A stretch of DNA of 30,704 bases from IMG/VR virus record IMGVR_UViG_3300035145_002235, positions 1 to 30,704 of that record; one strand, 5' to 3'. Under the pieces are notes generated by a model. The model saw only the letters and a program-made list of their open reading frames with translations, searched no databases and was not told where the DNA came from. A program made the translations under genes and the position numbers. Source of the DNA: a virus. The first letter of the stretch is position 1. The number at the start of each line of letters is the position of its first letter. Shown piece after piece: positions 6,001 through 29,850 of the stretch.

Positions 6001-7151
6001 CGTATATAAGTTTCTATCAATCATCCACACGTAGAGGTTACATACAATATCTTGATAGCGGCGATAGAATGTATATTGCCAACGAAGGCGGAAGCACTGC
6101 TATTGATTTAGATGGCGGAGTTAACGGACTTAAATTTGTTGAAGGTTCGAATACATATACAGTTTGGCACACTGGTAATGACGGACCAGGTACTGGATTA
6201 GATGCTGATACAATTGATGGTATAGACTCAGGAAGTTTTATACGTAGCGATACAAATGATAGTTTTACTGGCACATTAAGTGGCACCGGTAGTATTAATA
6301 TAACAGGAGATATTACCGCAAATACTTACTCAGGTGATGGTAGCGGACTTACAGGTGTTACAGCTACAAACGCAAATACCTTAGACAATTTAGATAGCAC
6401 ACAATTTTTACGTAGTGATCAAAATGATGGTACAACTGGCCAACTAGCAATTGGTAAATCTGCACCTGACAGTGCATATGACCTTGATATTGATATATCA
6501 AGCGGTTATGCTTTAACAAGGATTAGAGCAGGTAGTGATAATTCAGCAAGCACACAATATGCCAACAACCAAGCAAACGAAATGTCTATCGGTGTTAATA
6601 ATAGTTCAGCAGGTAATTATAGCGGCGCTGGCGGTAACCACGGTGCATTCATAGCTATTTCAAATCAAGGTTCAAATCCAAGAAACTTCCAAATCTATAG
6701 AATTGAATCTGGTGGTAATGGTTCTGTTCTAATGGGTATTACTAATTCAAACGGTAATGCAGATTTCTTAGGCGAAGTTACTGCCTACGCTTCAGACGAA
6801 CGTTTGAAAGAAAATGTTGAACCAATTGCTAATGCTATTGAAAAAGTAAAAGCCTTACAAGGTATGACATTTACCTGGAACGATAAAGCTCTTGAAGTAG
6901 GAGCTGTTGCTGAAGATAATCAACATATTAGAAATACAGGTGTATTTGCACAAGATGTAGAAAAAGTATTGCCAGAAGCAGTGGCACCTGCTCCGTTTGA
7001 TAAAGATAGTAACGGCAATGGTAAGTCTGGTGAAGATTACCTAACTGTAAGGTATGAAAAACTAACACCGTTGTTAATCGAAGCGATAAAAGAACAGCAA
7101 ACTCAAATTGATGAATTAAAAGAAATGGTGAAAAAACTGCTAGATAAATAA
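1..7151 (+). CDS. Giant tail fibre/adhesin with C-terminal S74 auto-cleaving chaperone domain (5' end outside window)
   Basis: The reading frame is open from position 3 without a stop, so the gene begins upstream of the window. The first possible in-frame start codon visible (TTG at 75) is not a credible start. More than 2,380 residues are visible, rich in Thr, Asn, Gly and Ser, as in beta-structured trimeric fibres. The middle holds two families of repeats (listed separately) and fibre-type segments such as VWHTGND and GDGSGLTG. The last ~120 residues form a Peptidase_S74 intramolecular chaperone: the SDERLKENV motif has its Ser codon at 6792-6794, and the tail ends in a coiled coil (EAIKEQQTQIDELKEMVKKLLDK region). 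In this family the domain trimerises the fibre and then cuts itself off just before that Ser-Asp. Role: host-recognition fibre or long tail-associated structural protein (inference; the exact T4 counterpart is not clear). Confidence 0.85.
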   Translation, partial: VAIEEISTSVNLGDDELGGASNARLSTQLAVRSFISNRLGGFVDKTVSTAAVPGAIVQLNVNGQLNADLIPATRQFTNTNTQGYNSRLEQVDDIPAVDLKAGDIGTENYEQIELTLSANTFSAADGATITQPSAFGATGYAKGLYGNSGNVLVASIGGEWIEGDDSTGSQWQTGVGNNLFVDGVDSGVYPTALGVVSEIVDNYFLKSSNSSQFLVLDPTDNYTFTANTITNAERTSNVATVTTSGAHNLQIGSAISVVVGDSSTLATLDENTVVISTPTSTTFTYANPNPDDISSTSITDGFVGTIVKSADGNAQGRVTETRFGIASGLDNGNITGGSLYTPTGGTLTYKDVPMTNVSGSGSGARANITVTAGQITDVDLIRGGTGYAIGDEISCLASNVGGTGSGFKVEVTSIEKRAYVDILGGELFVASTSSVDFVEDNTAVATAKDINVDDTISHNFLAGVSGSGGAVDYTNDRITITNHGLTNGDPLSYDTLGNVAIGGLLNGQVVYAKVIDANTIEIYEGFALLNKIEFLSTPANNNHNLTRKQVNIVDNSVVVENHGLTTGDAIRLNTLSDGSTSNALPTVDGADPIPDGSRFFVGSVTTNSFTLHNLRSDALASINDLVTNAEDLTTIGVGSVRMTTANVQVNGQVNTSSRLKANWNTLAVTNIDAENIISGIISPSRLGGSGVPNTDSFLRGDSSYQVVVQKLKKATTTDNPITLTGSSVSQEFYGTVNIGIANVDLDPGGTFSTLGTARFLQSQFDVDAAASGQVFIKDGVIDAGTLDSLDSAFFLNPSNLTSPVPVNKGGTNITTYAVGDLIYAETTGTLNPLNIGRANAILKSNGTKPEWGTALDLAEGLDVGAAALTSASTGSGSVYNSNVTSLEIGGDATNISIGSTNTTRNLFTFLQGYEATSSQNVVLNLKSVTATTNDLTAAGLNEIPLADTSSVLTGMIVTGSGSIPSNTTVSGVTTDYIYLSNDTTGTITNNTTLTFTYTPKTLGVNVGDIVNINGSTKTNLDGTWPVIGATDNATSFTIQTDANVTSNPVDTPAGSLTINSNFVIRNASVVVGNAETAATPTNANISATNAYGTDASGGSMTIEAGLGTGNATGADVVIKTGAVSTTSDIQHTSTERMRIDTSGKATFTGEVAANGGTISTNQTTANLLDTTATTVNAFGAATAIDIGAATGTTTIKNNLDVDGDVNVDGGDITTNQTSMNIMNTNATTVNAFGAATTINMGTGGDGGGTTTIGHDLVVSGDFTVNGDTTIINSTTMTVDDKNIVVASGAADSSAANGAGLTVDGANATLTWDHTNTSWDSNNDFNLASGKAYYINDASVLNSTTLGGAVVNSSLQTVGTISTGVWQGSVIAGEYGGTGVNNSGKTLTLGGNFLHSGAHTLTLTTTGNTSLTLPTTGTLATTDNPLSQFAATTSAQLAGVLSDETGSGNAVFSNNPNFTNNVTTSSTTFNVFNTNATTVNFAGAGTTVSIGASTGTTTVNNDLDVTGNLQIGGLSELGVSGGTFTLADTGATTVNAFGAATTIRFGATTGTLTIRNSNVVLDGNLAVNGNTIDTDETGTFNLIKDNATTVAFAQAATSIVIGETTGTSQFRHDVDIDGDLNIDGILTIGAIDGVPIGQTTPAAGAFTTLAANNFVTFTDATNATGTFAGGAAAVKITGGLHVAKDIRADNFIGDASASDLTSGTIPDARVPSSAITQHQTDITGTGALNAGSITSGFGDINIGTSTFSGNGSGLTNLSATQLTSGTIPDARIQASGVTQHQGSITGTGQLNSGSISSGFGNIDIGASSVTATGSASLGATNFNDNDLTNIGNIALDSLSADNGSSIDINANAIVTIANTSSATSTTSGALRVSGGLGVAGNIYGGAIYTANGTNIQALNASNLSSGTVPNTRIDGTYSNLTGTGALGAGEITSGFGNINIGTSTFTGNGSGLTNVDADTLDGVNSTSFLRSDAADEYSGLLTASRSGEMHRFADTSSTGSPYISFYQSSTRRGYIQYLDSGDRMYIANEGGSTAIDLDGGVNGLKFVEGSNTYTVWHTGNDGPGTGLDADTIDGIDSGSFIRSDTNDSFTGTLSGTGSINITGDITANTYSGDGSGLTGVTATNANTLDNLDSTQFLRSDQNDGTTGQLAIGKSAPDSAYDLDIDISSGYALTRIRAGSDNSASTQYANNQANEMSIGVNNSSAGNYSGAGGNHGAFIAISNQGSNPRNFQIYRIESGGNGSVLMGITNSNGNADFLGEVTAYASDERLKENVEPIANAIEKVKALQGMTFTWNDKALEVGAVAEDNQHIRNTGVFAQDVEKVLPEAVAPAPFDKDSNGNGKSGEDYLTVRYEKLTPLLIEAIKEQQTQIDELKEMVKKLLDK
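3499..4880 (+). repeat. Fibre repeat family A (five ~55-residue units)
   Basis: Five in-frame units carry the core NATTVNAFGAATxIxxG followed by TGTTTIxNxLxVxGD. Equivalent GCA codons fall at 3516, 3678, 4425, 4590 and 4758, giving spacings of 162, 165 and 168 nt within the two clusters. The last unit is the most diverged (ATTVAFAQAATSIVIG). Units end in a short xVDGDxxVxG strand, which suits a triple-stranded beta-helix shaft. Inference: shaft-length variation by unit gain or loss. Confidence 0.8.
5097..5880 (+). repeat. Fibre repeat family B (three units)
   Basis: Three in-frame units begin near 5097, 5282 and 5705 with SGT(I/V)P(D/N)(A/T)R, followed by TGTGxLxxGxI(T/S)SGFGxIxIG. The first and third units continue into STF(S/T)GNGSGLTN, while the second diverges after IDIGAS. 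The third unit is separated from the second by about 290 nt of other fibre sequence. Confidence 0.75.
7143..7150 (+). promoter_or_regulatory. Late-promoter-like GATAAATA over the fibre stop codon
   Basis: GATAAATA matches seven of eight bases of the T4 late promoter element TATAAATA. It overlaps the TAA stop of the fibre gene (7149-7151). It would give a transcript starting near 7156, ahead of the 56-residue ORF at 7216. The same octamer recurs at gene junctions throughout the window. Confidence 0.45.
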
Positions 7152-7160
7152 TTACAAGGC

Positions 7161-7189
7161 TTGACATAGATGTTAAATACTGTTATTAT
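7161..7189 (+). promoter_or_regulatory. Sigma70-like promoter (TTGACA-17-TATTAT)
   Basis: A perfect -35 TTGACA (7161-7166), a 17-nt spacer and TATTAT (7184-7189) lie just after the fibre gene. The spacer contains GTTAAATA (7172-7179), close to the late-promoter octamer. It would drive the downstream run 7216-11660, giving that accessory operon expression independent of late transcription. Confidence 0.7.
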
Positions 7190-7215: not shown

Positions 7216-7386
7216 ATGGCATTACCAAATACTGGCAGTACAATCACTATGAGTCAGATATCCAACTACTTTAGTGGACCGTCAACAAGTATTAGTATTG
7301 GTGCAGATTTAGGACCATACATAGGTATTTCAAATGGTACTACAATTACAATGAGTAGTACATTTGGCGGATATTATTTTCCTTAA
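7216..7386 (+). CDS. 56-residue fibre-like mini-protein
   Basis: A short ORF fills most of the gap between the fibre and the next gene: ATG at 7216, TAA at 7384-7386. It sits ~27 nt below the sigma70-like -10. The product starts MALPNTGSTITMSQISNYF and has two similar strands (STITMSQ and TTITMSS), a Ser/Thr/Gly-rich composition and an aromatic end (GGYYFP). From memory it resembles the short 'ISLSDxYGK'-type segments at the ends of marine T4-like phage fibre proteins, so it may be a small virion or fibre-associated protein. No strong Shine-Dalgarno is visible (GAGAAAATAAT precedes it). Function unknown. Confidence 0.6.
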   Translation: MALPNTGSTITMSQISNYFSGPSTSISIGADLGPYIGISNGTTITMSSTFGGYYFP

Positions 7387-14972: not shown

Positions 14973-14993
14973 TATTTATCGTATCGATAAATA
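14973..14993. promoter_or_regulatory. Divergent late-promoter palindrome between gp14 and gp13
   Basis: TATTTATCG-TAT-CGATAAATA is a perfect inverted repeat with 9-bp arms. The left arm read on the minus strand is GATAAATA toward gp14. The right arm is GATAAATACTATT (14986-14998) toward gp13, matching 12 of 13 bases of the T4 late consensus TATAAATACTATT. The plus-strand start of transcription would fall near 14999, right at the GGAGA Shine-Dalgarno of gp13. Confidence 0.8.
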
Positions 14994-16260: not shown

Positions 16261-17088
16261 ATGGATAAAATAAAAAAAGTTGTTTCCGGTGGATGTAGTT
16301 TTACAGCTGGAGCAGAATTAGCTGATCATAAAAGAGTAATTGAACCGTTAGGAAGTATAAGATTTGCAGGTGAATCTACTTGGGCACATCGGGTACAAAA
16401 AAATTTATATCCAAGTGCAACAGTAGATAATGTAGGTATGGTAGGAAGTGATTTTGGCAGTTGTGTAAGAAGAGTAATATATCACATAGACAATTTAATC
16501 AAATCATTCAATCCTGAAGAAATTGTTGTTTTAGTAATGTGGACAAGTTTAACCCGTAGAGAATATCCTCGTATTCTACCAAAAAAATCTATTGAAAGAT
16601 ATGTAGACGATGAAGATAAATTTTTCTGTTCGCAGCCAACGGATGCTGACGGATTTTTTAGTCCCCACAAAGGTACAAGGAAACAACGTAGAACTATTTT
16701 GTCCGAAGAGTATTTAAAAAACACAATACGGGATTTTTATAGGAACCGTACTGAAAGTAGTAATATAATATATTATCCTTTACAGCAAATTGAATACTTA
16801 GTTAGTTATTTAAATTCACAAAATGTAAAATTTTATTTTACATCTGCTTTTGATGACTTTGCCTATTATATAACTATGGAAAGAGAACCTAATATTTTTT
16901 TAGATGGTATGATAAAACGTTTGGATTTAAAAAACATAATACATAGAGAAGATAATTTAGGATTTTATAATTGGGCAAAACAAAACGGATACAAATTTGG
17001 TCCACAGGCTCATCCACTAGAAAAAGCACATAAAATCTGGGGTGACAAATTTTGTAATTTTATAACAGATCAAAGATCGTTATCGTGA
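16261..17088 (+). CDS. SGNH/GDSL-like hydrolase
   Basis: The 275-residue product begins MDKIKKVVSGGCSFTAG. GCSFT is the phage-type version of the GDS block, with Ser13 as likely nucleophile. Gly/Asn positions follow in VDNVGMVGSDFGS (block II-like) and VLVMWTSLTRRE (block III-like). The C-terminal block reads GPQAHPLEKAHKIWGD and offers the catalytic His (about H250), but the Asp normally three residues before it is not there, so the enzyme may use a dyad or be inactive. The start was set at ATG 16261; the longer frame upstream offers only TTG at 16240 and overlaps the methyltransferase. Likely an esterase or acetylhydrolase acting on a sugar polymer (inference). Its 3' end overlaps the convergent DUF3310-like gene by 19 bp. 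Confidence 0.75.
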   Translation: MDKIKKVVSGGCSFTAGAELADHKRVIEPLGSIRFAGESTWAHRVQKNLYPSATVDNVGMVGSDFGSCVRRVIYHIDNLIKSFNPEEIVVLVMWTSLTRREYPRILPKKSIERYVDDEDKFFCSQPTDADGFFSPHKGTRKQRRTILSEEYLKNTIRDFYRNRTESSNIIYYPLQQIEYLVSYLNSQNVKFYFTSAFDDFAYYITMEREPNIFLDGMIKRLDLKNIIHREDNLGFYNWAKQNGYKFGPQAHPLEKAHKIWGDKFCNFITDQRSLS

Positions 17089-17345
17089 ACATACAATTGA
17101 ATTAGTGCATAATGTAAAATTTTCATTAAATCTTTTCTAGCATCTTCTTGTGTGCCTTTTTTACCATAGCGATTTGAATACTTGTCTACATTGCCCATAC
17201 AAAATCCAGTTCCGTGCCCTCTATCTATGATTACTTCAGTTGACTGAAATTTATTTGTGCTATAGTGACCATTATAAGTTTTGTCAATATATTTTGCAAA
17301 TTCTGCAATATATTTGTCTTCATCAAATTTATAGTCAATTGTCAT
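17070..17345 (-). CDS. DUF3310-like small protein
   Basis: The 91-residue product has the layout of DUF3310: a central HGTGFCMGNVDKYSNRYGKKG segment (fold-typical G-N-x-x-K-Y followed by a GKKG turn) and then EDARKDLMKILHYALIQL, matching the 'ED-x2-K-A-x-H-Y-L' end of the family. DUF3310 proteins are common in phages near nucleotide-metabolism genes; their exact role is not settled. A GGATGATCG Shine-Dalgarno-like stretch precedes the ATG. It stands alone on the minus strand inside a late region, with its own sigma70-like promoter, which suggests early expression. Confidence 0.75.
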   Translation of the reverse strand: MTIDYKFDEDKYIAEFAKYIDKTYNGHYSTNKFQSTEVIIDRGHGTGFCMGNVDKYSNRYGKKGTQEDARKDLMKILHYALIQLYVHDNDL

Positions 17346-17364: not shown

Positions 17365-17393
17365 ATAATACATATGTTTAAGTAAAAAGTCAA
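17365..17393 (-). promoter_or_regulatory. Sigma70-like promoter for the DUF3310-like gene (TTGACT-17-TATTAT)
   Basis: Read on the minus strand, TTGACT (17393-17388), a 17-nt spacer and TATTAT (17370-17365) lie about 20 nt above the ATG at 17345, with AAAAGGATG between. Unlike the other two sigma70-like sites in the window, the spacer has no TAAATA element. Confidence 0.7.
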
Positions 17394-17452: not shown

Positions 17453-17489
17453 ATAGTAATAAAGAATATGACCCATAGGAGAAATGAAA

Positions 17490-20400
17490 ATGGCTTTAAC
17501 ATCACCAGGTGTACAGGTTAGCGTAATTGACGAAAGTTTCTACACGCCAGCAGAACCAGGTACAACACCTATACTATTTGTAGCGTCTGCAGAAAACAAA
17601 TTAAACGCTGCAGGCACCGGTATTGCTCCAGGAACAACGAAAGCAAATGCTGGTAAAGTTTACTTAATGACATCTCAAAGAGATTTAGCAGAAACATTTG
17701 GCGATCCTCTTTTCTACACAGATGCAAATAATAATCCAATACACGGAGGTGAACAGAATGAATACGGTTTACAAGCAGCGTATTCATATTTAGGTGTAAG
17801 CAATAGAGCATACGTTGTACGTGCAGATGTAGACTTAGGAGGTCTATCAGCTAGTGCAACTCCAACAACATCTAATCCAGCAGATGGTACTTGGTGGTTA
17901 GATACATCAACATCAATGTTTGGTATTCAAGAATGGAATGCCGCAGCAATTACAACAACTGGTGGACAAACATTTGCAAATAAAACACCGATAGTAATTA
18001 CAGATGCTACTCAGCTAGTAGGTAATTCAGCAACAGGAGCACCAAAAGGGTCAATTGGTGCAGTTGGTGATTACGCAGTGAGAGCAACTTCTACTACATT
18101 AAAAACATATTATAAAAACAAAAGCGGAGCGTGGGTTGAAGTAGGAAGTGCAAACTGGAAGAAAAGTTGGCCTTCTGTTTCAAGTGCAGCAGGTGGAGCA
18201 ACAGGTAGTGGAGAAACCTTCACACTAAACGGTACAACTGTTACAACAAGTGGTACAACACTTTCATCATTAGCAGGTGATATCAACGGAGAATCAATCA
18301 CTGGTATAACAGCCGCAGTAGTAGATAATAAATTAGAAATATACAACGACGGCAGTGGACAAGATACAATTGTGCTTGTAGACGGAACAGGTACACCATT
18401 AGCAGATATTAGTATTACAGCAGGTACATACTACAATACTGCTTTAACAATAGCACCGCATACAAGTGTTCCAGAATATAAGTCAGGTGATAGTAATCCT
18501 AGACCAACTGGATCGTTATGGGTAAAGACAACTGAACCTAATTTAGGTGCAAGTTGGAAAGTACGTGTATGGAACGGATCAACAGAAACTTGGGATTTAA
18601 AATCAGCACCGTTGTATACAAACAACGCAACAGCAATAAAAGAATTAGACAATGCAGGTGGCGGAGTAAATTTAGCCGCAAATAGTTTGTATATAAAATA
18701 TAATGCTGCAGACGATACCCCAACATTGGCTTCATACTACATATACTATAGAGTATCAGGTGGTCCTACTACAATTACATCAAATAAAATTGACGCAAGT
18801 ACTTTTAGTTCCGGAGCATTAACTTTTACAGTTAGTGAATCACTAAAAGGCAATGCTACAATGACTACACCAGCAACAGCATCATTTACAGCGACAGCAG
18901 CTGCAACAGATGCTGACTTAATGGCAGAAGCAGTAAACAATTTAGGATTAGTAAATGTTTCGGCAAGTGTTGATAGCCAAAATAGAGTTGTTATTACACA
19001 CAAATTAGGTGGTGAAATAAACTTTGTTGATACTGATAACGCATTAACAGCATCAGGTTTAGTAGCAGGCACTACAACAAACTTGTATTGGCAACCAGGT
19101 GAATCAGGTAGCAACCCTGAAAAACTAACTGCATCACTTTGGAAAGGTTTGACATACACAGCAAGTGCAAATGCACCAACAGCATTAGCTGCTGATGGAA
19201 CATTATGGTATAGCAGTGTAATCGACGAAGTTGACTTAATGATACACAATGGTAGTGAGTGGGTAGGTTACTTATATGACGGATCAAGCGGAATATCAAC
19301 TACAGCTGCACCATATTATACTGGTACACTGAATAGTCAACCTAGCGCAGCAGGTCCAATTATAAGTGCAACAGAACCAACAAATACAAGTCGTCCAGAT
19401 GGAAATAACTTAGTTACTGGTGATATTTGGATCAGCACAGCAGATTTAGAAAACTTTCCAAAAATCTACAGATACAATTCTGCACTTACAAACAAATGGG
19501 TATTGCTAGATAATACAGATCAAACTACAGAAAATGGTGTATTGTTTGCTGATGCACGTTGGAGTACTAACGGTGGTACTGCTTCTGCACACACAGCAGG
19601 CGATATTGAAGATTTAATTGCAAGTGACTTTTTAGACACAGATGCACCAGATCCTGCATTATATCCAAAAGGTATGCTATTATGGAATACACGCAGAAGC
19701 GGATTTAATGTCAAGAAATTTGTTAGAAACTATGTTGATGTAACAGCAGTTAACACAAGACAAAATGATGCAAGTATGAGTGCTTACTATCCACATCGTT
19801 GGGTAACAGAAAGTGCAAATAATGCAGACGGTTCAGGTGCGTTTGGTAGAATATCACAGCGTAAAGTTGTAGTTCAAGCAATGCAGTCAATGCTTAATAG
19901 CAACGACGATATTAGAGATGACGAATCACGTATCTTTAACTTAATTGCAACACCAGGTTATCCAGAATTAATTGGCGAAATGATTAGTCTGAATGCAGAC
20001 AGAGGATTGACTGCATTTGTTGTAGGTGACTCACCTGCAAGACTAACACCAGATGCAACATCATTAAACAACTGGGCAACAAACGTTGCATTAGCACCAG
20101 AAGATAATGACGACGGATTGGTCACAAGCGATGAATACTTAGGTGTTTACTATCCAAGTGGCTTTACAAGTGACAATGCAGGTAACAATGTTGTTGTTCC
20201 TCCAAGTCATATGGTGTTACGTACAATGGCATTAAATGATCAGGTTGCATTTCCTTGGTTTGCACCAGCTGGTACAAGACGCGGTGGTGTTACAAATGCT
20301 ACAGCGACAGGATATATTAACAGTGAAGGTGAATTTGTAAGTGTTGCTCTTAACGAAGGACAAAGAGATACACTGTATGCAAATAATGTTAATCCAATCA

Positions 20401-20786
20401 CTTTCTTAACAGGAGCAGGACTTGTTGTATTTGGACAAAAAACTCGTGCAAGAAACGCAAGTGCATTGGATAGAATTAATGTTGCAAGACTTACAGTTTA
20501 CTTACGTAGTCAGTTGAATCAACTTGCAAAACCATATTTGTTTGAACCAAATGATAAAATTACAAGAGACGAAATCAAACAACAAGTTGAAAGTCTAATG
20601 ATTGAATTGGTTGGTTTAAGAGCTCTATTTGACTTCTTAGTAGTATGTGACGAAACAAACAACACACCTGCTAGAATTGATAGAAACGAACTATATGTTG
20701 ACATAGCAGTAGAACCAGTGAAAGCAGTAGAATTCATATACATTCCACTACGTTTGAAAAATACTGGAGAAATAGCAGGCTTATAA
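17490..20786 (+). CDS. 18: Tail sheath protein gp18, enlarged
   Basis: The N-terminus (MALTSPGVQVSVIDESFY) and the C-terminal ~330 residues (ATPGYPELI, AFPWFAPAGTRRG, VFGQKTRA, ARLTVYLRSQL) are typical of contractile sheath proteins. The sheath is the contracting outer tube that drives the inner tube into the cell. ATG 17490 was chosen over ATG 17484 because TAGGAG (17476-17481) is 8 nt from the former but only 2 nt from the latter. At 1098 residues it is far longer than T4 gp18 (659). The extra ~440 residues lie between residues ~115 and 700 and contain five W-rich modules, probably on the outer face. A probable variant late promoter lies upstream and a hairpin (20794-20821) follows before gp19. 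Confidence 0.92.
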   Translation: MALTSPGVQVSVIDESFYTPAEPGTTPILFVASAENKLNAAGTGIAPGTTKANAGKVYLMTSQRDLAETFGDPLFYTDANNNPIHGGEQNEYGLQAAYSYLGVSNRAYVVRADVDLGGLSASATPTTSNPADGTWWLDTSTSMFGIQEWNAAAITTTGGQTFANKTPIVITDATQLVGNSATGAPKGSIGAVGDYAVRATSTTLKTYYKNKSGAWVEVGSANWKKSWPSVSSAAGGATGSGETFTLNGTTVTTSGTTLSSLAGDINGESITGITAAVVDNKLEIYNDGSGQDTIVLVDGTGTPLADISITAGTYYNTALTIAPHTSVPEYKSGDSNPRPTGSLWVKTTEPNLGASWKVRVWNGSTETWDLKSAPLYTNNATAIKELDNAGGGVNLAANSLYIKYNAADDTPTLASYYIYYRVSGGPTTITSNKIDASTFSSGALTFTVSESLKGNATMTTPATASFTATAAATDADLMAEAVNNLGLVNVSASVDSQNRVVITHKLGGEINFVDTDNALTASGLVAGTTTNLYWQPGESGSNPEKLTASLWKGLTYTASANAPTALAADGTLWYSSVIDEVDLMIHNGSEWVGYLYDGSSGISTTAAPYYTGTLNSQPSAAGPIISATEPTNTSRPDGNNLVTGDIWISTADLENFPKIYRYNSALTNKWVLLDNTDQTTENGVLFADARWSTNGGTASAHTAGDIEDLIASDFLDTDAPDPALYPKGMLLWNTRRSGFNVKKFVRNYVDVTAVNTRQNDASMSAYYPHRWVTESANNADGSGAFGRISQRKVVVQAMQSMLNSNDDIRDDESRIFNLIATPGYPELIGEMISLNADRGLTAFVVGDSPARLTPDATSLNNWATNVALAPEDNDDGLVTSDEYLGVYYPSGFTSDNAGNNVVVPPSHMVLRTMALNDQVAFPWFAPAGTRRGGVTNATATGYINSEGEFVSVALNEGQRDTLYANNVNPITFLTGAGLVVFGQKTRARNASALDRINVARLTVYLRSQLNQLAKPYLFEPNDKITRDEIKQQVESLMIELVGLRALFDFLVVCDETNNTPARIDRNELYVDIAVEPVKAVEFIYIPLRLKNTGEIAGL

Positions 20787-20824: not shown

Positions 20825-20832
20825 GATAAATA
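20825..20832 (+). promoter_or_regulatory. Late promoter GATAAATA for gp19
   Basis: GATAAATACTTGT begins 29 nt above the gp19 ATG. The predicted start near 20838 leaves a 16-nt leader holding TAGGAG. Confidence 0.65.
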
Positions 20833-20853
20833 CTTGTAGATAGGAGTAAATAT

Positions 20854-21480
20854 ATGGCAATCTCAACACTCACAAATATTACAGTTCCTTTGGCAAATGA
20901 TACAAGTGCAAGCAATCAAGGCTTGCTTATGCCAAAGTTACAATATCGTTTTAGAATTACACTAGAAAATTTTGGTGTATCAAACGAAACACAAGAATTA
21001 ACAAAACAAGTAATTGATGCTTCAAGACCTACAATTAGTTTTGAAAACCAAGAACTACACGTTTACAACAGTAAAGTAAACATTGCTGGTAAACATAGTT
21101 GGAACGAGGTTACAATCAACTTGCGTGACGATGTAAACGGAAATGTTTCAAAATTAGTTGGCGAACAGCTACAGAAGCAATTTGATTTCTTCGAACAAGC
21201 AAGTGCAGCATCAGGTATTGATTACAAATTTACATCACGTTTAGAAATACTAGATGGTGGCAATGGTGTAAACGCACCAAACGTATTAGAAACTTGGGAA
21301 ATTTACGGAGCATATTTAACATCAGTAGATTATGGTTCAGTTGCTTATGCAAGTAGTGACCCAGTCACAGTTGCGCTTACAATAATGTATGACAACGCAA
21401 TTCAAACTCCAGTTGGATCAGGTGTTGGATCAACTGTAGCAAGAAATGTAAGTTCACTTTCAACAGGTGGCGGCAGCTAA
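20854..21480 (+). CDS. 19: Tail tube protein gp19
   Basis: The 208-residue product has the tail-tube pattern: LMPKLQYRFRITLENFG near the start, a SRPTISFENQELHVYNSKVNIAG strand pair, KHSWNEVTINLRDD, and a late SVDYGSVAYASSDPVTVALTIMYDNA block. gp19 stacks as hexamers inside the sheath and forms the DNA channel. T4 gp19 is 163 residues; the excess here is mainly at the N-terminus and in a Gly/Ser-rich end. TAGGAG (20841-20846) precedes the ATG, a late promoter lies above, and an intrinsic terminator follows 22 nt after the stop, so gp19 is a single-gene transcription unit. That fits the need for very many copies. Confidence 0.92.
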   Translation: MAISTLTNITVPLANDTSASNQGLLMPKLQYRFRITLENFGVSNETQELTKQVIDASRPTISFENQELHVYNSKVNIAGKHSWNEVTINLRDDVNGNVSKLVGEQLQKQFDFFEQASAASGIDYKFTSRLEILDGGNGVNAPNVLETWEIYGAYLTSVDYGSVAYASSDPVTVALTIMYDNAIQTPVGSGVGSTVARNVSSLSTGGGS

Positions 21481-21501
21481 TATATAAAATAGAGATTGCA
21501 C

Positions 21502-21529
21502 AAAAAGGAGTCTTTACGGCTCCTTTTTT
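21502..21529 (+). terminator. Intrinsic terminator after gp19
   Basis: AAAAAGGAG (21502-21510) and CTCCTTTTT (21520-21528) form a perfect 9-bp stem with a 9-nt loop, and the right arm runs into a T tract. It is the clearest terminator in the window and isolates gp19 from the gene at 21566. Confidence 0.85.
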
Positions 21530-21553
21530 ATTATATACGCACATATAAAAAGT

Positions 21554-21561
21554 GATAAATA
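21554..21561 (+). promoter_or_regulatory. Late promoter GATAAATA close to a start codon
   Basis: GATAAATACG lies only 4 nt before ATG 21566. By the T4 late-promoter spacing, transcription would begin at or next to the start codon. No Shine-Dalgarno is present. Confidence 0.6.
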
Positions 21562-21565
21562 CGTT

Positions 21566-22891
21566 ATGAGCAAGTTTAACGGTTTTTTTGATAATTTTTC
21601 AAGTGCATTAGGTAACCCTAAAGGCAACCTTGGTGATTATGCACACGCCAGTGCATTGTATGTAAGAAACAATTTACGTCTAACACCAAAATTCAAACAT
21701 CTTTATCACGTTGTTTTTGATATCAATCCTATTGCTATATCTTCGCTTGGAAACTCAGCAAGTTTGCTTTTAAACAAAAAAGAATTTAATTTACTTGTAT
21801 CTAGTGTTGATTTGCCAGGATATACTGTGGATACAGATGTAAAAAATCAATATAATAGAAAAAGAATTGTACAAACAAAAATAAACTATGATCCTATTTC
21901 TTTAAGATTCCACGATGACAATGCCGGACTTACAACTTTACTTTGGGAAAGTTATTTTAGATACTACTATCAAGATCCTAATTATGCACGTAGAGATGCT
22001 AGTGGACAACCTGATACTACTGTTCCGATAGCATATATTAACAATCCTGACAACATATACGGCGGCGATGTACGCAATAGTTATAGGTATGGATTTGATA
22101 GGACAAGACCAAATGCTCCTTTCTTTAACACAATAACAATTAATCAATTACACGGGTTAAGTGGCGAAAGTAATTTTACTAGTTATACACTTGTTAACCC
22201 TATCATTTCTAGTCATAGGCACGATAATTTAGATCAAACAACTGGTAACTTTACAACTAACGAATTACAAATAGTTTATGAATCTGTACTGTACGGCAGA
22301 GGAAAAACTTCTACAGATAATCCAGCAGGATTTGCTGATCCAAGCCATTATGATGTTTCGCCAAGTCCTTTATCAATTGAAGGCGGAGGAGTGACTAATA
22401 TTTTTGGTGATGGAGGAATATTAAACGGAATTGCAAATGTTTTCACAGATATTGAAAACAAAAATATCAACATAGGAACAGTTCTAACAGGTATAAACAC
22501 AATTAGGAACATCGACAATCTTTCAAATGCAGATTTAAATGCTGAAAAAGATGCTATTATAGACGGAGCACTTTTTGCTGTTGCTACAGCTGCTCTCAAC
22601 GGATTAAACAATTATGCATTTAATCAAGGAAGCACTGCTACAACACAATCTCAACAAGTATTAGATGGCAACGATACTATATTCAATCAGTCAAGGTCAG
22701 ACGCATTGAACTTATTAAATACAAATCAACAAGCAAGAGAAGATTTTGCATTTAACCAGTTTTTTAAAAATCAACAAACTGGTAATTTAAATGACAGAAA
22801 AGAAGTTTGGAATAATTTAAGTCAAAGCCAAAAAAATCAATTTTCACAAGCGGCTATTGATAACTTTGACAATATAAGGAATCAGCAATGA
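21566..22891 (+). CDS. Tube-fold virion structural protein
   Basis: Residues ~40-140 follow the layout of tail-tube-like folds: LTPKFKHLYHVVFDINP (compare gp19 LMPKLQYRFRITLENFG), FNLLVSSVDLPGYTVDTD, NRKRIVQTKINYDPISLRFHDD and LLWESYFRYYYQDP. This resembles the tube initiator gp54 and related proteins of T4-like phages more than gp19 itself. A second part (residues ~185-260) has YTLVNPIISSHRHDNLD and ELQIVYESVLYGRG. The last ~100 residues are Asn/Gln-rich and helical. It is probably a baseplate-tube initiator or a tail completion protein, but I cannot decide which. It is followed by a 4-nt overlap with the next gene (ATGA). Confidence 0.6.
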   Translation: MSKFNGFFDNFSSALGNPKGNLGDYAHASALYVRNNLRLTPKFKHLYHVVFDINPIAISSLGNSASLLLNKKEFNLLVSSVDLPGYTVDTDVKNQYNRKRIVQTKINYDPISLRFHDDNAGLTTLLWESYFRYYYQDPNYARRDASGQPDTTVPIAYINNPDNIYGGDVRNSYRYGFDRTRPNAPFFNTITINQLHGLSGESNFTSYTLVNPIISSHRHDNLDQTTGNFTTNELQIVYESVLYGRGKTSTDNPAGFADPSHYDVSPSPLSIEGGGVTNIFGDGGILNGIANVFTDIENKNINIGTVLTGINTIRNIDNLSNADLNAEKDAIIDGALFAVATAALNGLNNYAFNQGSTATTQSQQVLDGNDTIFNQSRSDALNLLNTNQQAREDFAFNQFFKNQQTGNLNDRKEVWNNLSQSQKNQFSQAAIDNFDNIRNQQ

Positions 22892-23262
22892 CAAACACTG
22901 ATGTAACAAGCACAATCAAAGATACCGATAGTTCTGCAGAAGTAAAAGAATTTTACAATAAGTATTTTACAAAACAAATTAATTTTACATCAAATCAAGT
23001 AGATAGTGTTGTAGGATTTTTTGAACGCAGAGGTTTTGGAAAAGAAAGTGCAGTTGCAGTTTCTACAGCTATTTTACAACAAGCAGAATTAGAAAAAACA
23101 CCTGTGTATTCAATATTAGATACATTAAAAGGTTTAGACGAAGTTAAGATTAGTAAACTTGTAACTACTATACTTAATGTAAACAGAAGTAAATCAAGTG
23201 CATTAGGTTACAAAGTTGCTCCTGAAACACCAAGTAGAGAAGCTAGAAATATTATTCTGTAA
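22888..23262 (+). CDS. Small conserved phage protein, 124 aa
   Basis: From memory, the segment FTSNQVDSVVGFFERRGF and the following AVSTAILQQAELEKTPVYSILDTLKGLDEV-type helices recur in marine T4-like phages between tail and head-completion genes. The protein is helical with no membrane segment and a basic C-terminal end. It overlaps the upstream structural gene by 4 nt and gp4 by 1 nt (TAATG at 23260-23264), so it is made together with them. Function unknown, probably virion assembly. Confidence 0.8.
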   Translation: MTNTDVTSTIKDTDSSAEVKEFYNKYFTKQINFTSNQVDSVVGFFERRGFGKESAVAVSTAILQQAELEKTPVYSILDTLKGLDEVKISKLVTTILNVNRSKSSALGYKVAPETPSREARNIIL

Positions 23263-23699
23263 TGGCACGTTTTGCACAAGGAAAGTATGCACTAAAAAAC
23301 CCTGACAAATATATAGGAGGCAGGTCACCTACATATAGAAGCAGTTGGGAATTTGCTTTTATGCGTATGTGTGATATGAATGAAAATGTATCTAAATGGG
23401 CAAGTGAAGCTGTAAAAATACCTTATAGAAATCCATTAAGCGGAAAATACACAATTTATGTTCCTGATTTTTTTATAGTATATGCAGACAAAACAGGCGC
23501 ACAAAAAGTTGAATTAATTGAAATAAAACCTGCTAACCAAACACACGAAAGTAAATTAGGAAAAAGTCAAAATAATAGATTACATTATATAGTAAATCAA
23601 GCAAAATGGACAGCGGCAAGAGCATTTTGTAAACAAAAAGGAATGATGTTTAGAGTTATCAATGAATCAGATATTTTTCACCAAGGAAAACGTAGATAA
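23262..23699 (+). CDS. 4: Head completion nuclease-like protein gp4
   Basis: The 145-residue product aligns by eye with T4 gp4: KNPDKYIGG (T4 KNPEKYRGD), TYRSSWEFAFMRMCDMN (T4 TYRSSWERKFMNFCDTN), KIPYRNPLSGK, DFFIVYAD, ELIEIKP, AKWTAARAFCKQKGMMF. The nuclease-like residues are E30, D69 and E87-I-K89, the PD-(D/E)XK pattern of TnsA-type endonucleases. gp4 finishes the packaged head and is needed for joining the tail. Its stop lies inside the late promoter that serves gp16. Confidence 0.92.
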   Translation: MARFAQGKYALKNPDKYIGGRSPTYRSSWEFAFMRMCDMNENVSKWASEAVKIPYRNPLSGKYTIYVPDFFIVYADKTGAQKVELIEIKPANQTHESKLGKSQNNRLHYIVNQAKWTAARAFCKQKGMMFRVINESDIFHQGKRR

Positions 23700-23702
23700 A
23701 TA
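23695..23702 (+). promoter_or_regulatory. Late promoter GATAAATA for gp16
   Basis: GATAAATACTAGC matches 9 of 13 positions of the T4 extended late consensus. It contains the TAA stop of gp4 (23697-23699). The predicted start near 23708 leaves an 18-nt leader with TGGA. Confidence 0.65.
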
Positions 23703-23725
23703 CTAGCATATAATGGAATAGTAAA

Positions 23726-24211
23726 ATGACTAAAAAACTTGAAGATCTTTTAAATATTGCACCAGACGATATAAAAGAAGAAAATCAACAAAAAGCAGAA
23801 ACTGCAATAGTTGAACAAGAAGATACTTTTAGAGACATTGCTGAATTTGATAAAATAGCAAGTGCATTACCAGCTGTCAAAGGCTTAGGAGATATGGCCG
23901 ATACAGAATTAAATGAAGTTGCAAACAAAGCAATGACCGCTTATGATGATTTAATGGACTTAGGAATGAATGTTGAAAGTCGTTATAGTGGTAGAGTTTT
24001 TGAAGTTGCTGGTACAATGTTAAAAACAAGTTTAGATGCCAAAGTTGCTAAACTAGATAAAAAATTAAAAATGGTTGAGCTACAACTTAAAAAGCAAAAA
24101 CAAGACCAAGCAAACGGTCCAACAGACGATATTGTTAATGGCGAAGGATATGTAATTACTGATAGAAATAGTCTACTAGAGCGCCTAAAAGGTCTTGATA
24201 AAGATAAATAG
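23726..24211 (+). CDS. 16: Small terminase subunit gp16-like
   Basis: The product has an acidic, disordered N-terminus (LLNIAPDDIKEENQQKAE), then LPAVKGLGDMADTEL and a long helical pair (residues ~68-125) with YDDLMDLGMNVESRYSGRVFEVAG and KLDKKLKMVELQLKKQKQDQ, as in gp16 of marine T4-like phages by recall. The small subunit recognises DNA and stimulates the gp17 motor. At 161 residues it is near T4 gp16 (164). A late promoter lies upstream and another overlaps its stop. In T4 genes 16 and 17 are adjacent; here three genes lie between them. Confidence 0.75.
   Translation: MTKKLEDLLNIAPDDIKEENQQKAETAIVEQEDTFRDIAEFDKIASALPAVKGLGDMADTELNEVANKAMTAYDDLMDLGMNVESRYSGRVFEVAGTMLKTSLDAKVAKLDKKLKMVELQLKKQKQDQANGPTDDIVNGEGYVITDRNSLLERLKGLDKDK
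24203..24210 (+). promoter_or_regulatory. Late promoter GATAAATA for the 24233 gene cluster
   Basis: The octamer overlaps the TAG stop of gp16 (24209-24211). The predicted start near 24216 is followed by ATAGGAAG, the Shine-Dalgarno for ATG 24233. Confidence 0.6.
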
Positions 24212-24232
24212 TATATAATAGGAAGTACAATT

Positions 24233-24796
24233 ATGAAAAGTTTTACAGATTATCTAACAGAATCAAAAAGAGTTTATGCTTTTAAAGTAGGCATCGCAGG
24301 AGACTTACCAGAAAATTGCGAAGATGATATGGAAAGATGCTTGCAAAAATTTGGTGTAAGCAAAATGAGTGCAGGCAAAAAAACACCAATACAAGAACGT
24401 CCTTTAGATTTCCCCCAACTAGAAAACTGTGAAGTGCATTACTACGAAGTAGAATTGATGTATCCTACTACAAGTCAAATTTTACAAGAGTATATCGGTC
24501 ATTGTTGTGGTGTAAATCAAGCACATATTATTGTACGTAATCCAAACGAACCACAAGAACTGTATCAGCAAGAAAAAGATGAAACACAATATGTTGCAAA
24601 ACTGACACAAGAAGATATGGGTCAAGCCGAAGGCGATGCACAAGCAAATGTAGGACCTGGTAGAGTTATGGATTTATTAAAAGAATTAGAAACAGCCCGT
24701 AAAGAACGTTCTGCAGATTATGTTGGCGATGTGCCAGTTGGCGAAAGTAAAGATATTGGCGATTCACAAAATACAAAAAGCCCAATAGGAGCATAA
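24233..24796 (+). CDS. Hypothetical protein, 187 aa, beginning MKSFTDYLTESK
   Basis: The N-terminus MKSFTDYLTESK resembles a short 'KSFxxYLxEA/S' leader seen at the start of several T4-like phage head-associated proteins (recall), which could be a targeting or scaffold-docking tag. The body (residues ~15-110) looks like a compact alpha/beta domain with YAFKVGIAGDLPENCEDDMERC, VHYYEVELMYPTT and HCCGVNQAHIIVRNP. The rest is acidic and probably disordered, ending in short Gly/Pro-rich sequence. Shine-Dalgarno AGGAAG precedes the ATG, and the next gene starts 2 nt after its stop. Function unknown, but it lies within the packaging cluster. Confidence 0.75.
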   Translation: MKSFTDYLTESKRVYAFKVGIAGDLPENCEDDMERCLQKFGVSKMSAGKKTPIQERPLDFPQLENCEVHYYEVELMYPTTSQILQEYIGHCCGVNQAHIIVRNPNEPQELYQQEKDETQYVAKLTQEDMGQAEGDAQANVGPGRVMDLLKELETARKERSADYVGDVPVGESKDIGDSQNTKSPIGA

Positions 24797-24798
24797 AA

Positions 24799-25836
24799 AT
24801 GGAAAAAGATATTTTATCAGAAAAACAATTAAACGAAGTAGCACCTCTAGTTGCTGCACTAGTAGGTGCATTAGTTGGTATGGGCTTAGAAAAAAATAAA
24901 GCAAAAAAAGCTGCACAACAGGCTGTTGCAAAAGCAGACGGAGCAGATGCTAATGCTAATGTAGATCCTGGTTTAGCAAAAGGTCAAACAGGTATAGCAG
25001 CACCAGATGCAAAACCTACTGCAACTCCTACTGCACCTCCTACAGGACGTTCATACAATGATGTAATGAAAATGGGTAGTAAAGGCCAGGGTGTAAAACG
25101 CTTACAAGTTAAGTTAGGTATGAGACAAGCAGATGGAATTTTTGGACCTGCTACAGCTAAAGCAGTAAAAACTTTCCAAAAAAATCAAGGATTAAAAGTA
25201 GATGGTATAGTAGGACCTAATACAAAAAAAGCAATAGAAAAATTAGCGAAAGCAGGAAGTTTTAAGGACCCAAATGCAATGAAAATAAGAACAGACTTTT
25301 CAGTAGACCACACAGGAAACCCAATTAAAGAAGAAATTACAGTTTCAGGTAGCGCAGAAGAATTAGCACGTATGATGCAACTTGCAGGTGCACCTGGAGC
25401 AAAAATGCTCGAGCCTATGGATATTAATCAACCTGAGCCAGAAATGGATAGTCCTTGCGGTGGCGGCAGTGAACCATCAATGGGTGATATGGTTTCAATG
25501 ATGAGAGCAGAAGATGATGATCAAGGTGCAATGGGTGACGAATATGACGATGAACCAAGTGCGCCAGATGAAATGTATATTAATGATGTTTCAGCAAGTA
25601 TTCCATCAGGCAATGATTTGCACAAAAGTAAAAAATCATATGCAAAAGCATCAGGCGGTGATAATCCAATGAATTTGGAATCAATTAAAGATCAACTTTA
25701 TGCTGCGTTGACTGATAAAATGACAGAAGGTAGAGGTCGTGGACGTGGTAAAAAAATGAAAATGAAAGACGCTATTGATGTAAAAACAACCGAGGGCCGA
25801 GGTAAAGGTAAAGGCCGTGGCAGAGGAAAAGGTTGA
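24799..25836 (+). CDS. Peptidoglycan-binding-domain protein with RG/KG-rich tail
   Basis: Residues 13-30 are hydrophobic (VAPLVAALVGALVGMGL), either a membrane-active helix or a buried segment. Residues ~95-149 are a PG_binding_1 domain: GVKRLQVKLGM, DGIFGPATAKAVKTFQKNQGL, DGIVGPNTKKAIEKL, with the twin DGI(F/V)GP turns that mark the fold. The middle contains ITVSGSAEELARMMQLAG and an acidic, Met-rich stretch. The end is strongly basic, with RGRGRGKK and GKGKGRGRGKG flanking a short spacer. No lytic catalytic domain is visible, so it is a wall-binding structural or assembly protein rather than a full endolysin. AGGAG in the preceding gene's end serves its ATG. Confidence 0.8.
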   Translation: MEKDILSEKQLNEVAPLVAALVGALVGMGLEKNKAKKAAQQAVAKADGADANANVDPGLAKGQTGIAAPDAKPTATPTAPPTGRSYNDVMKMGSKGQGVKRLQVKLGMRQADGIFGPATAKAVKTFQKNQGLKVDGIVGPNTKKAIEKLAKAGSFKDPNAMKIRTDFSVDHTGNPIKEEITVSGSAEELARMMQLAGAPGAKMLEPMDINQPEPEMDSPCGGGSEPSMGDMVSMMRAEDDDQGAMGDEYDDEPSAPDEMYINDVSASIPSGNDLHKSKKSYAKASGGDNPMNLESIKDQLYAALTDKMTEGRGRGRGKKMKMKDAIDVKTTEGRGKGKGRGRGKG

Positions 25837-26167
25837 TTGGTCAGCATATTTTGATCACATAAAATCGGTTTGTCCTTGGGCATACGCAGCTTACAAAAAA
25901 CAAGAAATAAAAATTACAGAATGGTCTGGTAAAGTTGATCAGCTAGAAAACTACCAGGCCATTGTTTATATTGTGCCTAACATTAATCGTAGACGATTAA
26001 AAAAACTTGCAAAAAAATTAGACACTAGTTTAGAATATGAATTTTTATGGAGTGAACCTACTAATGGTGATTATGCTTCTCCTGTACATATTTTGATACA
26101 GCAAAACAGAAGAAAGTTATTTGATGCTAGGTTCAACATAGGATATTACGACCATTTATTAGAGTAA
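25817..26167 (+). CDS. Small conserved protein next to terminase, 116 aa
   Basis: It starts at GTG 25817, overlapping the previous gene by 20 nt, with AAAGG just upstream; no ATG lies near the 5' end. The product has VDWSAYFDHIKSVCPWAYAAY, ITEWSGKV, a VYIVPNINRRRLKKLAKKLD block and HILIQQNRRKLFDARF. From memory, proteins of this shape sit just before the large terminase gene in marine T4-like phages. The role is unknown; the conserved position suggests a link to packaging. It is compact alpha/beta and basic, without membrane segments. Confidence 0.75.
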   Translation: MAEEKVDWSAYFDHIKSVCPWAYAAYKKQEIKITEWSGKVDQLENYQAIVYIVPNINRRRLKKLAKKLDTSLEYEFLWSEPTNGDYASPVHILIQQNRRKLFDARFNIGYYDHLLE

Positions 26168-26170
26168 ATA
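26163..26170 (+). promoter_or_regulatory. Variant late promoter (AGTAAATA) at the gp17 start
   Basis: TAAATA (26165-26170) overlaps the TAA stop of the preceding gene and lies 4 nt before ATG 26175, the same distance as at 21554. The first two bases differ from GATAAATA. Confidence 0.4.
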
Positions 26171-26174
26171 CAGT

Positions 26175-27755
26175 ATGAGTAAAAGTTTAGATGGTGTATT
26201 AACCAAAAAAGCAAATCAACAAGAATCTTTTACAAACGAACAAGTAGAAGATTTAATGAAATGTATGGATCCTGAATTAGGCTATTTGTATTTTGCAAAA
26301 CATTTTGCACATATACAACATCCTGTGCAAGGAAAATTGTTATTTGATCCTTATGATTATCAATTAGGTTTACTTGATTCTTATCATAGTTATAGATTCA
26401 ATGTAAATATGATGCCAAGACAAACAGGAAAAACTACGTGTGCAAGCATTTACTTGTGTTGGTATGCTATGTTTAATTCAGATCAAACAATATTAATTGC
26501 TGCTCACAAATATACAGGTGCACAAGAAATTATGCAACGTATTAGATACGTTTATGAATTGTGTCCTGATCATATTAGAGCAGGTGTTACAAGTTATAAC
26601 AAAGGTAGTATTGAGTTTGAAAATGGATCACGTATTATAAGTCAAACAACAACAGGAACTACTGGACGTGGTTTGTCTATATCACTACTATACTGTGACG
26701 AGTTTGCATTTGTGCAACCTAATATTGCAGAAGAATTTTGGACATCAATTTCACCTACACTTGCAACAGGTGGCCGTGCTATTATAACAAGCACTCCAAA
26801 TTCAGACGAAGACACATTTGCAACTATATGGAAACAAGCAGAACAAAAGTTTGATGAATATGGAAATGAGAACGATGTTGGTATAAATGGCTTTCACTCA
26901 TTTATGGCACATTGGAGTGAACATCCTGATAGAGATGATAAATGGAAAGTTGATGAAGTAGGACGTATTGGCGAAGAAATGTTTAGACGTGAATACGAAT
27001 GTGAATTTTTAGTATTCGACGAAACATTAATTAACAGTTTGAAATTGGCTGTTATGGAGGGTGTAAATCCTACTATGAATATGGGGCAAGTGCGTTGGTA
27101 TAAAACACCACGTGCAGATAAAAATTATGTTATTGCTCTTGACCCTGCAATGGGCACCGGAGGAGATAATGCAGCTATAGAAGTTTTAGAGCTTCCGACA
27201 TATGAGCAAGTTGCAGAATGGCAACACAATGTTACAGCAATACCAGGTCAAATAAGAGTAATGCGTGATATTTGCAAATACATTTCTGATACTACAAACA
27301 GCGATGGTAGTAATATATATTGGAGTGTTGAAAATAATGGTATAGGTGAAGCGTGTTTGTTAGTGATACAAGATTTTGGCGAGGAAAACATTCCAGGATT
27401 GTTTATCAGTGAACCTATACGCAAAGGACACGTAAGAAAATTTAGGAAAGGATTTAACACTACACACGGTAGTAAAACTACAACTTGTGCAAGGCTAAAA
27501 ACAATGATCGAAAACGATCAACTGGTAATAAAAAGCAAACCACTGATTACAGAACTCAAAGGTTTTATTGCAACAGGTAGTAGCTTTCAAGCAAAGCCAG
27601 GCAATAGTGATGATTTAGTAAGTGCTCTAATTTTAGCACTTAGAGTTATTAATGTTATGAAAGATTGGGACGCAAGTGTTTACAATACATTTTCGCAAGT
27701 GGATGCAAACGAAGATTACGAAATGCCAATGCCTATCTTTATAAGCAGTAATTAG
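26175..27755 (+). CDS. 17: Large terminase subunit gp17 (ATPase-nuclease packaging motor)
   Basis: The ATPase domain has Walker A MMPRQTGKTT (P81-T88), Walker B LLYCDEF (D175-E176) and an S-T-P-N coupling motif (SSTP-like ITSTPNS at ~204-210). The RNase H-fold nuclease domain has ALDPAMGTGGD (D323), SVENNGIGE (E386) and NSDDLVSAL (D479/D480). It drives DNA into the head and cuts the concatemer. At 526 residues it is shorter than T4 gp17 (610) but complete. No Shine-Dalgarno precedes ATG 26175; a late-promoter-like element lies 4 nt above. Its stop is the first base of the next late promoter. Confidence 0.97.
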   Translation: MSKSLDGVLTKKANQQESFTNEQVEDLMKCMDPELGYLYFAKHFAHIQHPVQGKLLFDPYDYQLGLLDSYHSYRFNVNMMPRQTGKTTCASIYLCWYAMFNSDQTILIAAHKYTGAQEIMQRIRYVYELCPDHIRAGVTSYNKGSIEFENGSRIISQTTTGTTGRGLSISLLYCDEFAFVQPNIAEEFWTSISPTLATGGRAIITSTPNSDEDTFATIWKQAEQKFDEYGNENDVGINGFHSFMAHWSEHPDRDDKWKVDEVGRIGEEMFRREYECEFLVFDETLINSLKLAVMEGVNPTMNMGQVRWYKTPRADKNYVIALDPAMGTGGDNAAIEVLELPTYEQVAEWQHNVTAIPGQIRVMRDICKYISDTTNSDGSNIYWSVENNGIGEACLLVIQDFGEENIPGLFISEPIRKGHVRKFRKGFNTTHGSKTTTCARLKTMIENDQLVIKSKPLITELKGFIATGSSFQAKPGNSDDLVSALILALRVINVMKDWDASVYNTFSQVDANEDYEMPMPIFISSN

Positions 27756-29844: not shown

Positions 29845-29850
29845 TACTAT

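Follow-up and report, generated by a model that had tools for sequence, protein, structure and literature searches.

The late promoters of phage T4, which are read with gp55, gp33 and gp45, share a core TAAATA within an octamer of the TATAAATA kind. That octamer occupies positions -13 to -6, and in five other T4-like phages late promoters have been placed exclusively upstream of late-gene orthologues, according to PMC1524935. The timing of middle genes is poorly settled in those phages of the T4 superfamily that lack MotA. In RB49, S-PM2 and apparently Syn9, all of which are without MotA, middle genes are thought to run from early and late promoters, and genes whose T4 counterparts have MotA promoters are presumed to combine an early sigma70-type promoter with a late one of the NATAAATA type; among S-PM2 genes with both promoters predicted, a few showed no middle profile by PCR (PMC2984593).

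Leader RNAs of T4 provide a second point of comparison. In T4, the leader of gene 32 bears a 5′ pseudoknot that nucleates the binding of gp32 and stands 67 nt ahead of the start codon (PMC535899 and PMC3014915). In the leader of T4 gene e, the choice of start site decides whether a hairpin is formed, with the late start losing an inhibitory hairpin (PMC3014915).

The composite promoter described here fits the RB49, S-PM2 and Syn9 class of MotA-less middle promoters that combine early and late elements. It differs from that class in that the octamer lies inside the -35/-10 spacer, within a narrow range of positions, and in that the predicted late leader of gp32 contains a covarying hairpin. Overlapping early and late promoters have already been proposed for RB49 and the cyanophages, and what is new is the fixed nesting and the late-only hairpin. 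A literature search that took in few subscription papers found no description of a fixed nesting within a sigma70 spacer or of a late-only gp32 hairpin, which is weak evidence of novelty. An early/late composite promoter that can be searched for, and that occurs at gp32, folE and small ORFs and is absent at a control promoter of these same phages, makes timing testable from sequence together with infection RNA-seq. Moreover, a hairpin completed only by the late start would, in phages only distantly related to T4, tie sigma switching directly to the control of gp32 through its leader RNA.

The window, its sigma70-like promoters and its presumed late octamers

The window is the whole 30,704-nt stretch of viral DNA that was analysed, and gene content and protein searches identify it as a fragment of a marine T4-superfamily jumbo phage. 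Judged by gp32, the cultured phages nearest to it are Sinorhizobium phage Phosso (57% identical) and Pseudomonas phage PA5oct (53%), followed by a Vibrio phage and Agrobacterium phage Atu_ph07 (49% each) and then by the RaK2/121Q group; the Pfam gp32 match to the product falls below the cut-off. When the records of relatives were searched, a late sigma of the gp55 family (phrog_234, phrog_12791) was present in all seven jumbo records and in T4, and MotA (PF09114) was found in none of the seven, the same profile finding MotA in T4. The tail sheath protein of the window (17484-20786) has 1100 aa, which exceeds the T4 sheath in length, and the general sheath profile phrog_23 covers only residues 449-1095 of it.

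The preliminary description had reported a TAAATA nested in the 17-nt spacer of two of three sigma70-like sites, and the sequence, read directly, agrees: site A holds GTTAAATA, site B holds GATAAATA, and the third, site C on the minus strand, is without TAAATA (Table 1). The pattern TTGACW-N16-18-TANNNT has six matches in the window against 5.3 expected, of which three lie inside genes and the others are sites A, B and C; the count of three sites therefore applies to intergenic sites. Site C sits upstream of a DUF3310 gene (17070-17345), which it drives.

Within the window there are two instances of the nested pattern where 0.16 would be expected, a count that 3 of 100 shuffles reach, and shuffling each site's own spacer recreates TAAATA in 2.1% (site A) or 4.5% (site B) of cases. 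TAAATA is under-represented across the whole window (32 against 60 expected) and is present in 67 of its 988 intergenic 17-mers. With so modest an enrichment and this background, the window alone is suggestive rather than decisive. Taken by itself, the nesting is only moderately unlikely to have arisen by chance, and it is conservation in relatives that raises it above chance.

The octamer GATAAATA is enriched in the window, with nine copies against 2.46 expected and none of 100 shuffles reaching nine. Every copy touches a called start codon or stands within 77 nt before one, and the nine are presumed to be the window's late octamers. The nested octamer of site B is letter-identical to the others, and that of site A differs at position 2. 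The predicted leader measures 11-71 nt for six copies; at the remaining three (14973-14980 on the minus strand, 21554-21561 and 27755-27762) transcription is predicted to begin at the called start codon, within it or 2 nt ahead of it, with predicted starts 21567 and 27768 coinciding with or adjoining it. These start codons or octamers therefore need care, as translation may begin deeper in the genes or the octamers may be unused. Each of the copies at 7143-7150, 23695-23702 and 24203-24210 overlaps the gene before it at that gene's end, as with GAT AAA TAA at 7143-7151.

Table 1. Promoter elements, presumed late octamers, RNA arms and genes of the window
Feature	Position	Strand	Remark
Canonical late octamer GATAAATA at the tail-fibre gene end	7143-7150	+	Stop codon 7149-7151; 10 bp before the -35 of site A
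Site A, sigma70-type promoter TTGACA-N17-TATTAT of the 56-aa ORF	7161-7189	+	Sequence; relatives
Site A parts: TTGACA; 17-nt spacer TAGATGTTAAATACTGT; TATTAT	7161-7166; 7167-7183; 7184-7189	+	Read directly
GTTAAATA nested in the site A spacer, non-canonical late octamer	7172-7179	+	TAAATA in relatives
56-aa ORF driven by site A, after the tail-fibre gene	7216-7386	+	Without a match in Pfam or PHROG
Divergent pair of presumed late octamers GATAAATA	14973-14980; 14986-14993	-; +	The first touches a called start codon
Site C, sigma70-type promoter TTGACT-N17-TATTAT	17365-17393	-	Spacer without TAAATA; negative control
Presumed late octamers GATAAATA	20825, 21554, 23695, 24203, 27755 (first positions; 20825-27762 overall)	+	A structural or packaging gene follows each
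Site B, sigma70-type promoter TTGACA-N17-TAGTAT of gene 32	29816-29844	+	Sequence; relatives
Site B parts: TTGACA; 17-nt spacer AGATAAATAAACTTGTG; TAGTAT	29816-29821; 29822-29838; 29839-29844	+	Read directly
Late octamer GATAAATA nested in the site B spacer	29823-29830	+	Predicted late start 29836 (G)
5′ arm GTGTAG of hairpin S1	29836-29841	+	Three bases before the -10 box and the box's first three
-10 box TAGTAT of site B	29839-29844	+	Predicted early start about 29850-29852
Alternative pairing S2, GTGC/GCAC	29854-29857/29870-29873	+	Predicted folds of late and early RNA
3′ arm CTACAC of hairpin S1	29857-29862	+	
Gene 32, single-stranded DNA-binding protein	29907-30704	+	Cut by the contig end; protein identities

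The gene 32 promoter and its leader hairpin

Conservation at site B was read from 81 gp32 upstream regions, namely the window and the best 80 related loci, a selection that leans to close relatives, as do the locus lists for the other genes, which have the same upper limit of 80; after removal of L030 and L047, which are too short, they comprise 66 distinct sequences. All 66 carry a sigma70-type promoter, with a spacer of 17 nt in 57, 16 in eight and 18 in one, and 33 of the 66 hold TAAATA within that spacer, at position 3 in 25, at position 5 in six, and at positions 2 and 4 once each. Among the 33 without the exact hexamer, 20 have a similar one (TAAGTA in ten, TATATA in five, TAACTA in three, TGAGTA and TTAAAA in one each) and 13 have none. 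The bases before TAAATA are GA in 22 of 33, the same as in the octamers of the window, and the gap between TAAATA and the -10 box is 8 in 26 of 33. A G follows the hexamer by six bases in 48 of the 53 regions with an octamer-like hexamer and in 31 of the 33 with exact TAAATA. With the T4 octamer placed at -13 to -6 (PMC1524935), this G would be the predicted late start, although its constancy may be partly owed to the TG that precedes the -10 box. Where TAAATA shifts from position 3 to position 5, the -10 box goes from TAGTAT-like to TATAGT and the G shifts as well. In the window, 62 nt separate the end of site B from the start codon of gene 32.

In none of 11 cultured jumbo relatives does a sigma70 spacer at gp32 contain TAAATA. 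For example, PA5oct has a perfect sigma70 consensus alone, without TAAATA, the TATAAATA of Phosso extends into the -10 box, and Atu_ph07 has GATAAATA with a G at +6 and without a good -35 element. The core TAAATA, the late sigma family of the relatives and such TATAAATA-like octamers are shared with T4 late promoters; the differences are that the octamer of the window begins with G, that position 2 is C or A in relatives, and that the element is embedded in a sigma70 promoter.

The -10 box of site B also contributes to an inverted repeat, S1 (Table 1), which was followed in alignment A2, made of 43 of the 66 distinct regions. These were chosen by hand, with near-duplicates and regions without an in-register octamer-like hexamer omitted, and the pair counts therefore lean towards the octamer class. 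In A2, 95.3% of the cells of S1 are paired, five of its six pairs show double changes, 20 cells are changed on both sides against 4.5 in shuffles, and every slid version scores lower than the true register. Across all 66 regions, arms score 19.4 with their own partners and 16.8 (sd 0.32) with permuted ones, and none of 2000 permutations reaches the former value. The six pairs in A2 include 17 G-U cells, three A-C cells and nine other mismatches; the excess of G-U over A-C favours an RNA structure, and a duplex DNA operator, the other candidate for the inverted repeat, was disfavoured for this reason.

RNA begun at 29836 is predicted to open with S1, at a modest stability (z -1.6 against shuffles), and RNA begun at 29851 is predicted to form GUGC/GCAC instead. 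This alternative pairing, S2, could in the late RNA be the second stem of a pseudoknot. Its covariation is weak (12.7 for own partners against 12.4 for permuted ones, with 105 of 2000 permutations reaching the own score); a firm pseudoknot was therefore set aside, and stem 1 alone is claimed. Searches against Rfam gave no credible match at gp32, only six sub-threshold hits.

A stem involving the -10 box was found in 32 of the 33 nested jumbo gp32 regions against 13 of the other 33, counts that kinship weakens. A tree-controlled test of the association between octamer and hairpin yielded 3.7 pairs pointing the same way and 0.1 the other (median p 0.125), with two pairs in another run; the link thus has the right sign on the gp32 trees and is not significant, there being too few independent pairs.

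A comparable arrangement appears in cyanophages. Among the relatives listed, 20 of 68 distinct Syn9-type cyanophage gp32 promoters are nested (21 of 66 or 23 of 72 under other de-duplications), which suggests that about a third of them repeat the plan of site B. In most of the nested ones a stem uses the -10 box as its 5′ arm, as TGCTAC.GTAGCA, varying to TGTTAC.GTAACA and TGCTAT.ATAGCA. At p<0.05 the hairpin is present in 14 of 21 nested promoters against 4 of 45 others, with kinship again weakening the counts, and no partner permutation out of 2000 matches it. Alignment A3, consisting of the 13 in-register regions among the 21 nested ones plus Syn9, has 92.9% of cells paired in its 14 sequences, and its single pair changed on both sides is not unusual, being reached by 205 of 500 shuffles. 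The predicted late-start RNA of Syn9 opens with the hairpin (z -1.9), and the early-start RNA does not keep it.

From these elements, with their conservation, spacing and covarying stem, and from the finding that relatives have a late sigma and no MotA, we infer that gene 32 is probably served at site B by a dual early/late promoter, its leader hairpin being completed only in the late RNA. Early in infection, host RNA polymerase with the housekeeping sigma would read TTGACA-N17-TAGTAT and start near 29851; later, polymerase with a phage sigma of the gp55 type would read GATAAATA in the same spacer and start at about 29836, some 15 nt upstream. The two promoter forms would cover the same DNA and would therefore be mutually exclusive. 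The whole hairpin, GUGUAG...CUACAC, would stand at the 5′ end of the late, longer RNA only (or occur in RNA from upstream), and early RNA would be limited to the GUGC/GCAC hairpin because the 5′ arm of S1 overlaps the early -10 box. As only the late RNA would bear the whole hairpin, the late leader could be subject to a regulation or stabilisation of its own, most likely resembling that by the 5′-terminal gp32-binding structure of T4 gene 32. The proposal of the preliminary description that one short site serves first a host-type and later a phage-type sigma factor accordingly gains, at site B, from octamer identity, TAAATA in half of the gp32 spacers, the +6 G, the hairpin, gp55 and the lack of MotA.

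It is also conceivable, though quite improbable, that the hairpin serves read-through RNA from upstream late genes, in processing, stability or gp32 control, with the octamer merely tolerated and the late gp32 mRNA coming from upstream promoters. T4 gene 32 is likewise transcribed from upstream, with processing. The 5′ arm of S1 does lie upstream of the early start, and some relatives without any octamer (L037, L038 and L060) still form a stem with a spacer arm. Such a role would sit poorly with the register of octamer, +6 G and hairpin base, which is kept when the octamer moves by 2 nt, with the greater frequency of the hairpin where the octamer is present, and with the absence of S1 from the structure predicted for RNA that begins at 29816.

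For a hairpin formed upon the late start at site B, an operator role would be a functional parallel with T4 gene 32. The T4 and RB69 gene 32 translational operator is also a structured element about 70 nt before the start codon, the distance being 67 nt in T4 (PMC3014915) and, counted from the predicted late start, 71 nt in the window. It differs in sequence; moreover, the 5′ arm of S1 overlaps the early -10 box, the hairpin would belong to late RNA only, and the second stem is weakly supported here. As in the T4 gene e leader, the choice of start site would decide whether the hairpin forms, but in gene e the late start loses an inhibitory hairpin (PMC3014915) and at gp32 it would gain one, with the Shine-Dalgarno sequence outside.

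A broader reading can be offered tentatively, and we consider it rather doubtful. Here the choice of sigma would set the state of the gene 32 message, such that early mRNA escapes feedback by gp32 and late mRNA carries a gp32-responsive 5′ hairpin or pseudoknot made partly from the -10 box. The same would hold, with different stems, at jumbo and Syn9-type gp32, and nesting in the spacer would be a general form of middle promoter in MotA-less aquatic phages of the T4 superfamily.

Site A and nested promoters at other genes

In the spacers of site A relatives, TAAATA is present in 12 of 14 distinct sequences, at position 5 in nine of the 12 and at position 7 in three; L113, L119 and L120 were omitted from this set, and L110/L111 and L115 were counted by way of weak -35 elements, TTGCTA and TTGCAA, that were accepted post hoc. 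This conservation speaks for early-then-late use of the site, an order that we infer from sequence at both sites. Against it stand the bases preceding TAAATA (GT, AT and AG), unlike those of most late octamers here, the lack of a conserved +6 base among the relatives, and the canonical octamer nearby. The latter (7143-7150) is the better candidate for a late promoter serving the 56-aa ORF, and at site A the late start may lie elsewhere or TAAATA may have another role. Site A likely shares the plan of site B at the level of TAAATA conservation, with weaker evidence for its late half. In many site A relatives (L082-L116) a hairpin resembling a terminator separates the stop codon of the tail-fibre gene from TTGACA; the window lacks this hairpin.

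Among the relatives listed, and counting only loci with a TTGA[CT] promoter, spacers hold TAAATA in 27 of 30 folE loci (30 of 75 distinct ones qualifying), in all 19 loci of a 103-aa ORF (19 of 36 qualifying) and in none of 28 relatives of site C (28 of 40 qualifying); with a looser -35 element, 34 of 46 folE promoters are nested. It is very unlikely that chance or common ancestry, in spacers that just happen to be AT-rich, accounts for the nested TAAATA. The modest enrichment in the window, with its background among intergenic 17-mers, would allow it, but the site C spacers are also AT-rich and lack the element, and the gp32 tree requires at least 13 changes in TAAATA presence, so that TAAATA does not represent one inheritance.

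A relative of 357 kb (G001, in 18 pieces) has 46 intergenic sigma70 promoters against five for the reversed pattern, and six of the 46 are nested against 0.52 expected from shuffled spacers, a number not reached in 5000 trials. The nested promoters precede gp32, folE (GTP cyclohydrolase I), a DUF2201 gene, the 103-aa ORF and two tRNA gene groups, the last assigned by position only, a few hundred bases downstream. Compared with the T4 middle-period set, the nested genes include gp32, folE and, by position, the tRNA groups, together with the DUF2201 gene, the 103-aa ORF and the 56-aa ORF. One 20-kb piece of this relative (L146, 2490-12363, minus strand) has 24 predicted tRNA genes, and the two nested promoters assigned to tRNA groups lie there.

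With overlapping matches counted, the nested pattern exceeds its mirror by 39 to 5 over 19 records and by 48 to 10 over 15 more; as these records were chosen through earlier locus hits, part of the nested matches is expected. T4, RB49, S-PM2, Syn9, GAP32, 121Q, RaK2 and a Vibrio phage show no enrichment, with four nested matches against eight for the control. One of the four is the gene 32 promoter of cyanophage Syn9, and RB49 itself has no match.

The main rival to a gp55 promoter is that the spacer TAAATA is a site for a putative phage middle-mode regulator acting with sigma70 polymerase, a reading that we regard as unlikely. It is favoured by the frequent 6-bp distance between TAAATA and the -10 box, seen in 21 of 34 folE, 16 of 18 ORF-103, 14 of 20 cyanophage gp32 and 9 of 12 site A relatives. 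At folE, CC or TC precedes TAAATA, a combination uncommon among the start-proximal octamers of the 357-kb relative, and no +6 base preference was found there. Since PF09114 finds no MotA in the jumbo records, another middle regulator is conceivable. The core, however, is shared with the octamers that are presumed to act late in these genomes, and jumbo gp32 has the GA of the window octamers and most often a gap of 8, not 6; moreover, the predicted late start there meets the base of the hairpin.

The -10 hairpin distinguishes nested promoters from others in one genome (6 versus 40; Mann-Whitney P 0.0017) and in a pooled set without jumbo gp32 (85 versus 88; P 7e-5). A hairpin at all nested promoters was considered and rejected, as the pooled signal comes mainly from cyanophage gp32 (14/21) and the 103-aa ORF (5/18). 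With 3 of 34 at folE, 0 of 12 at site A and 1 of 28 at site C, the stem is therefore mainly a feature of gp32 and not of nesting itself.

Other features of these leaders and promoters were observed by eye. The folE leaders (L142, upstream of 6328-7026 on the minus strand; L161, L168, L172, L175, L177, L190, L208 and L236) contain a small hairpin whose loop, ATCC(A/T)C, hardly varies and whose stem differs between loci, apparently with covariation. Downstream of it come TTAACATCGGAG, ATAACTCGGAG or a similar sequence and then the start codon. This hairpin is possibly an operator or riboswitch of 7-deazaguanine genes; Rfam gave no match at E<=1 in ten of the loci. In the first 40 kb of the 357-kb relative (L132 and L133), a series of early promoters of the form TTGACA-N16-TATAAT is apparent (e.g., L133 at about 238, 647 and 3268), several with near-palindromic spacers, such as CACGAGTccaaACTCGTG, that differ in sequence. 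Finally, on the minus strand of L132 (index 11525), the 5′ arm of a 9-bp inverted repeat, CCTTCAGTG/CACTGAAGG, lies immediately upstream of the -10 box and the 3′ arm extends into the Shine-Dalgarno sequence, such that read-through RNA would hide the start site and promoter-born RNA would not.
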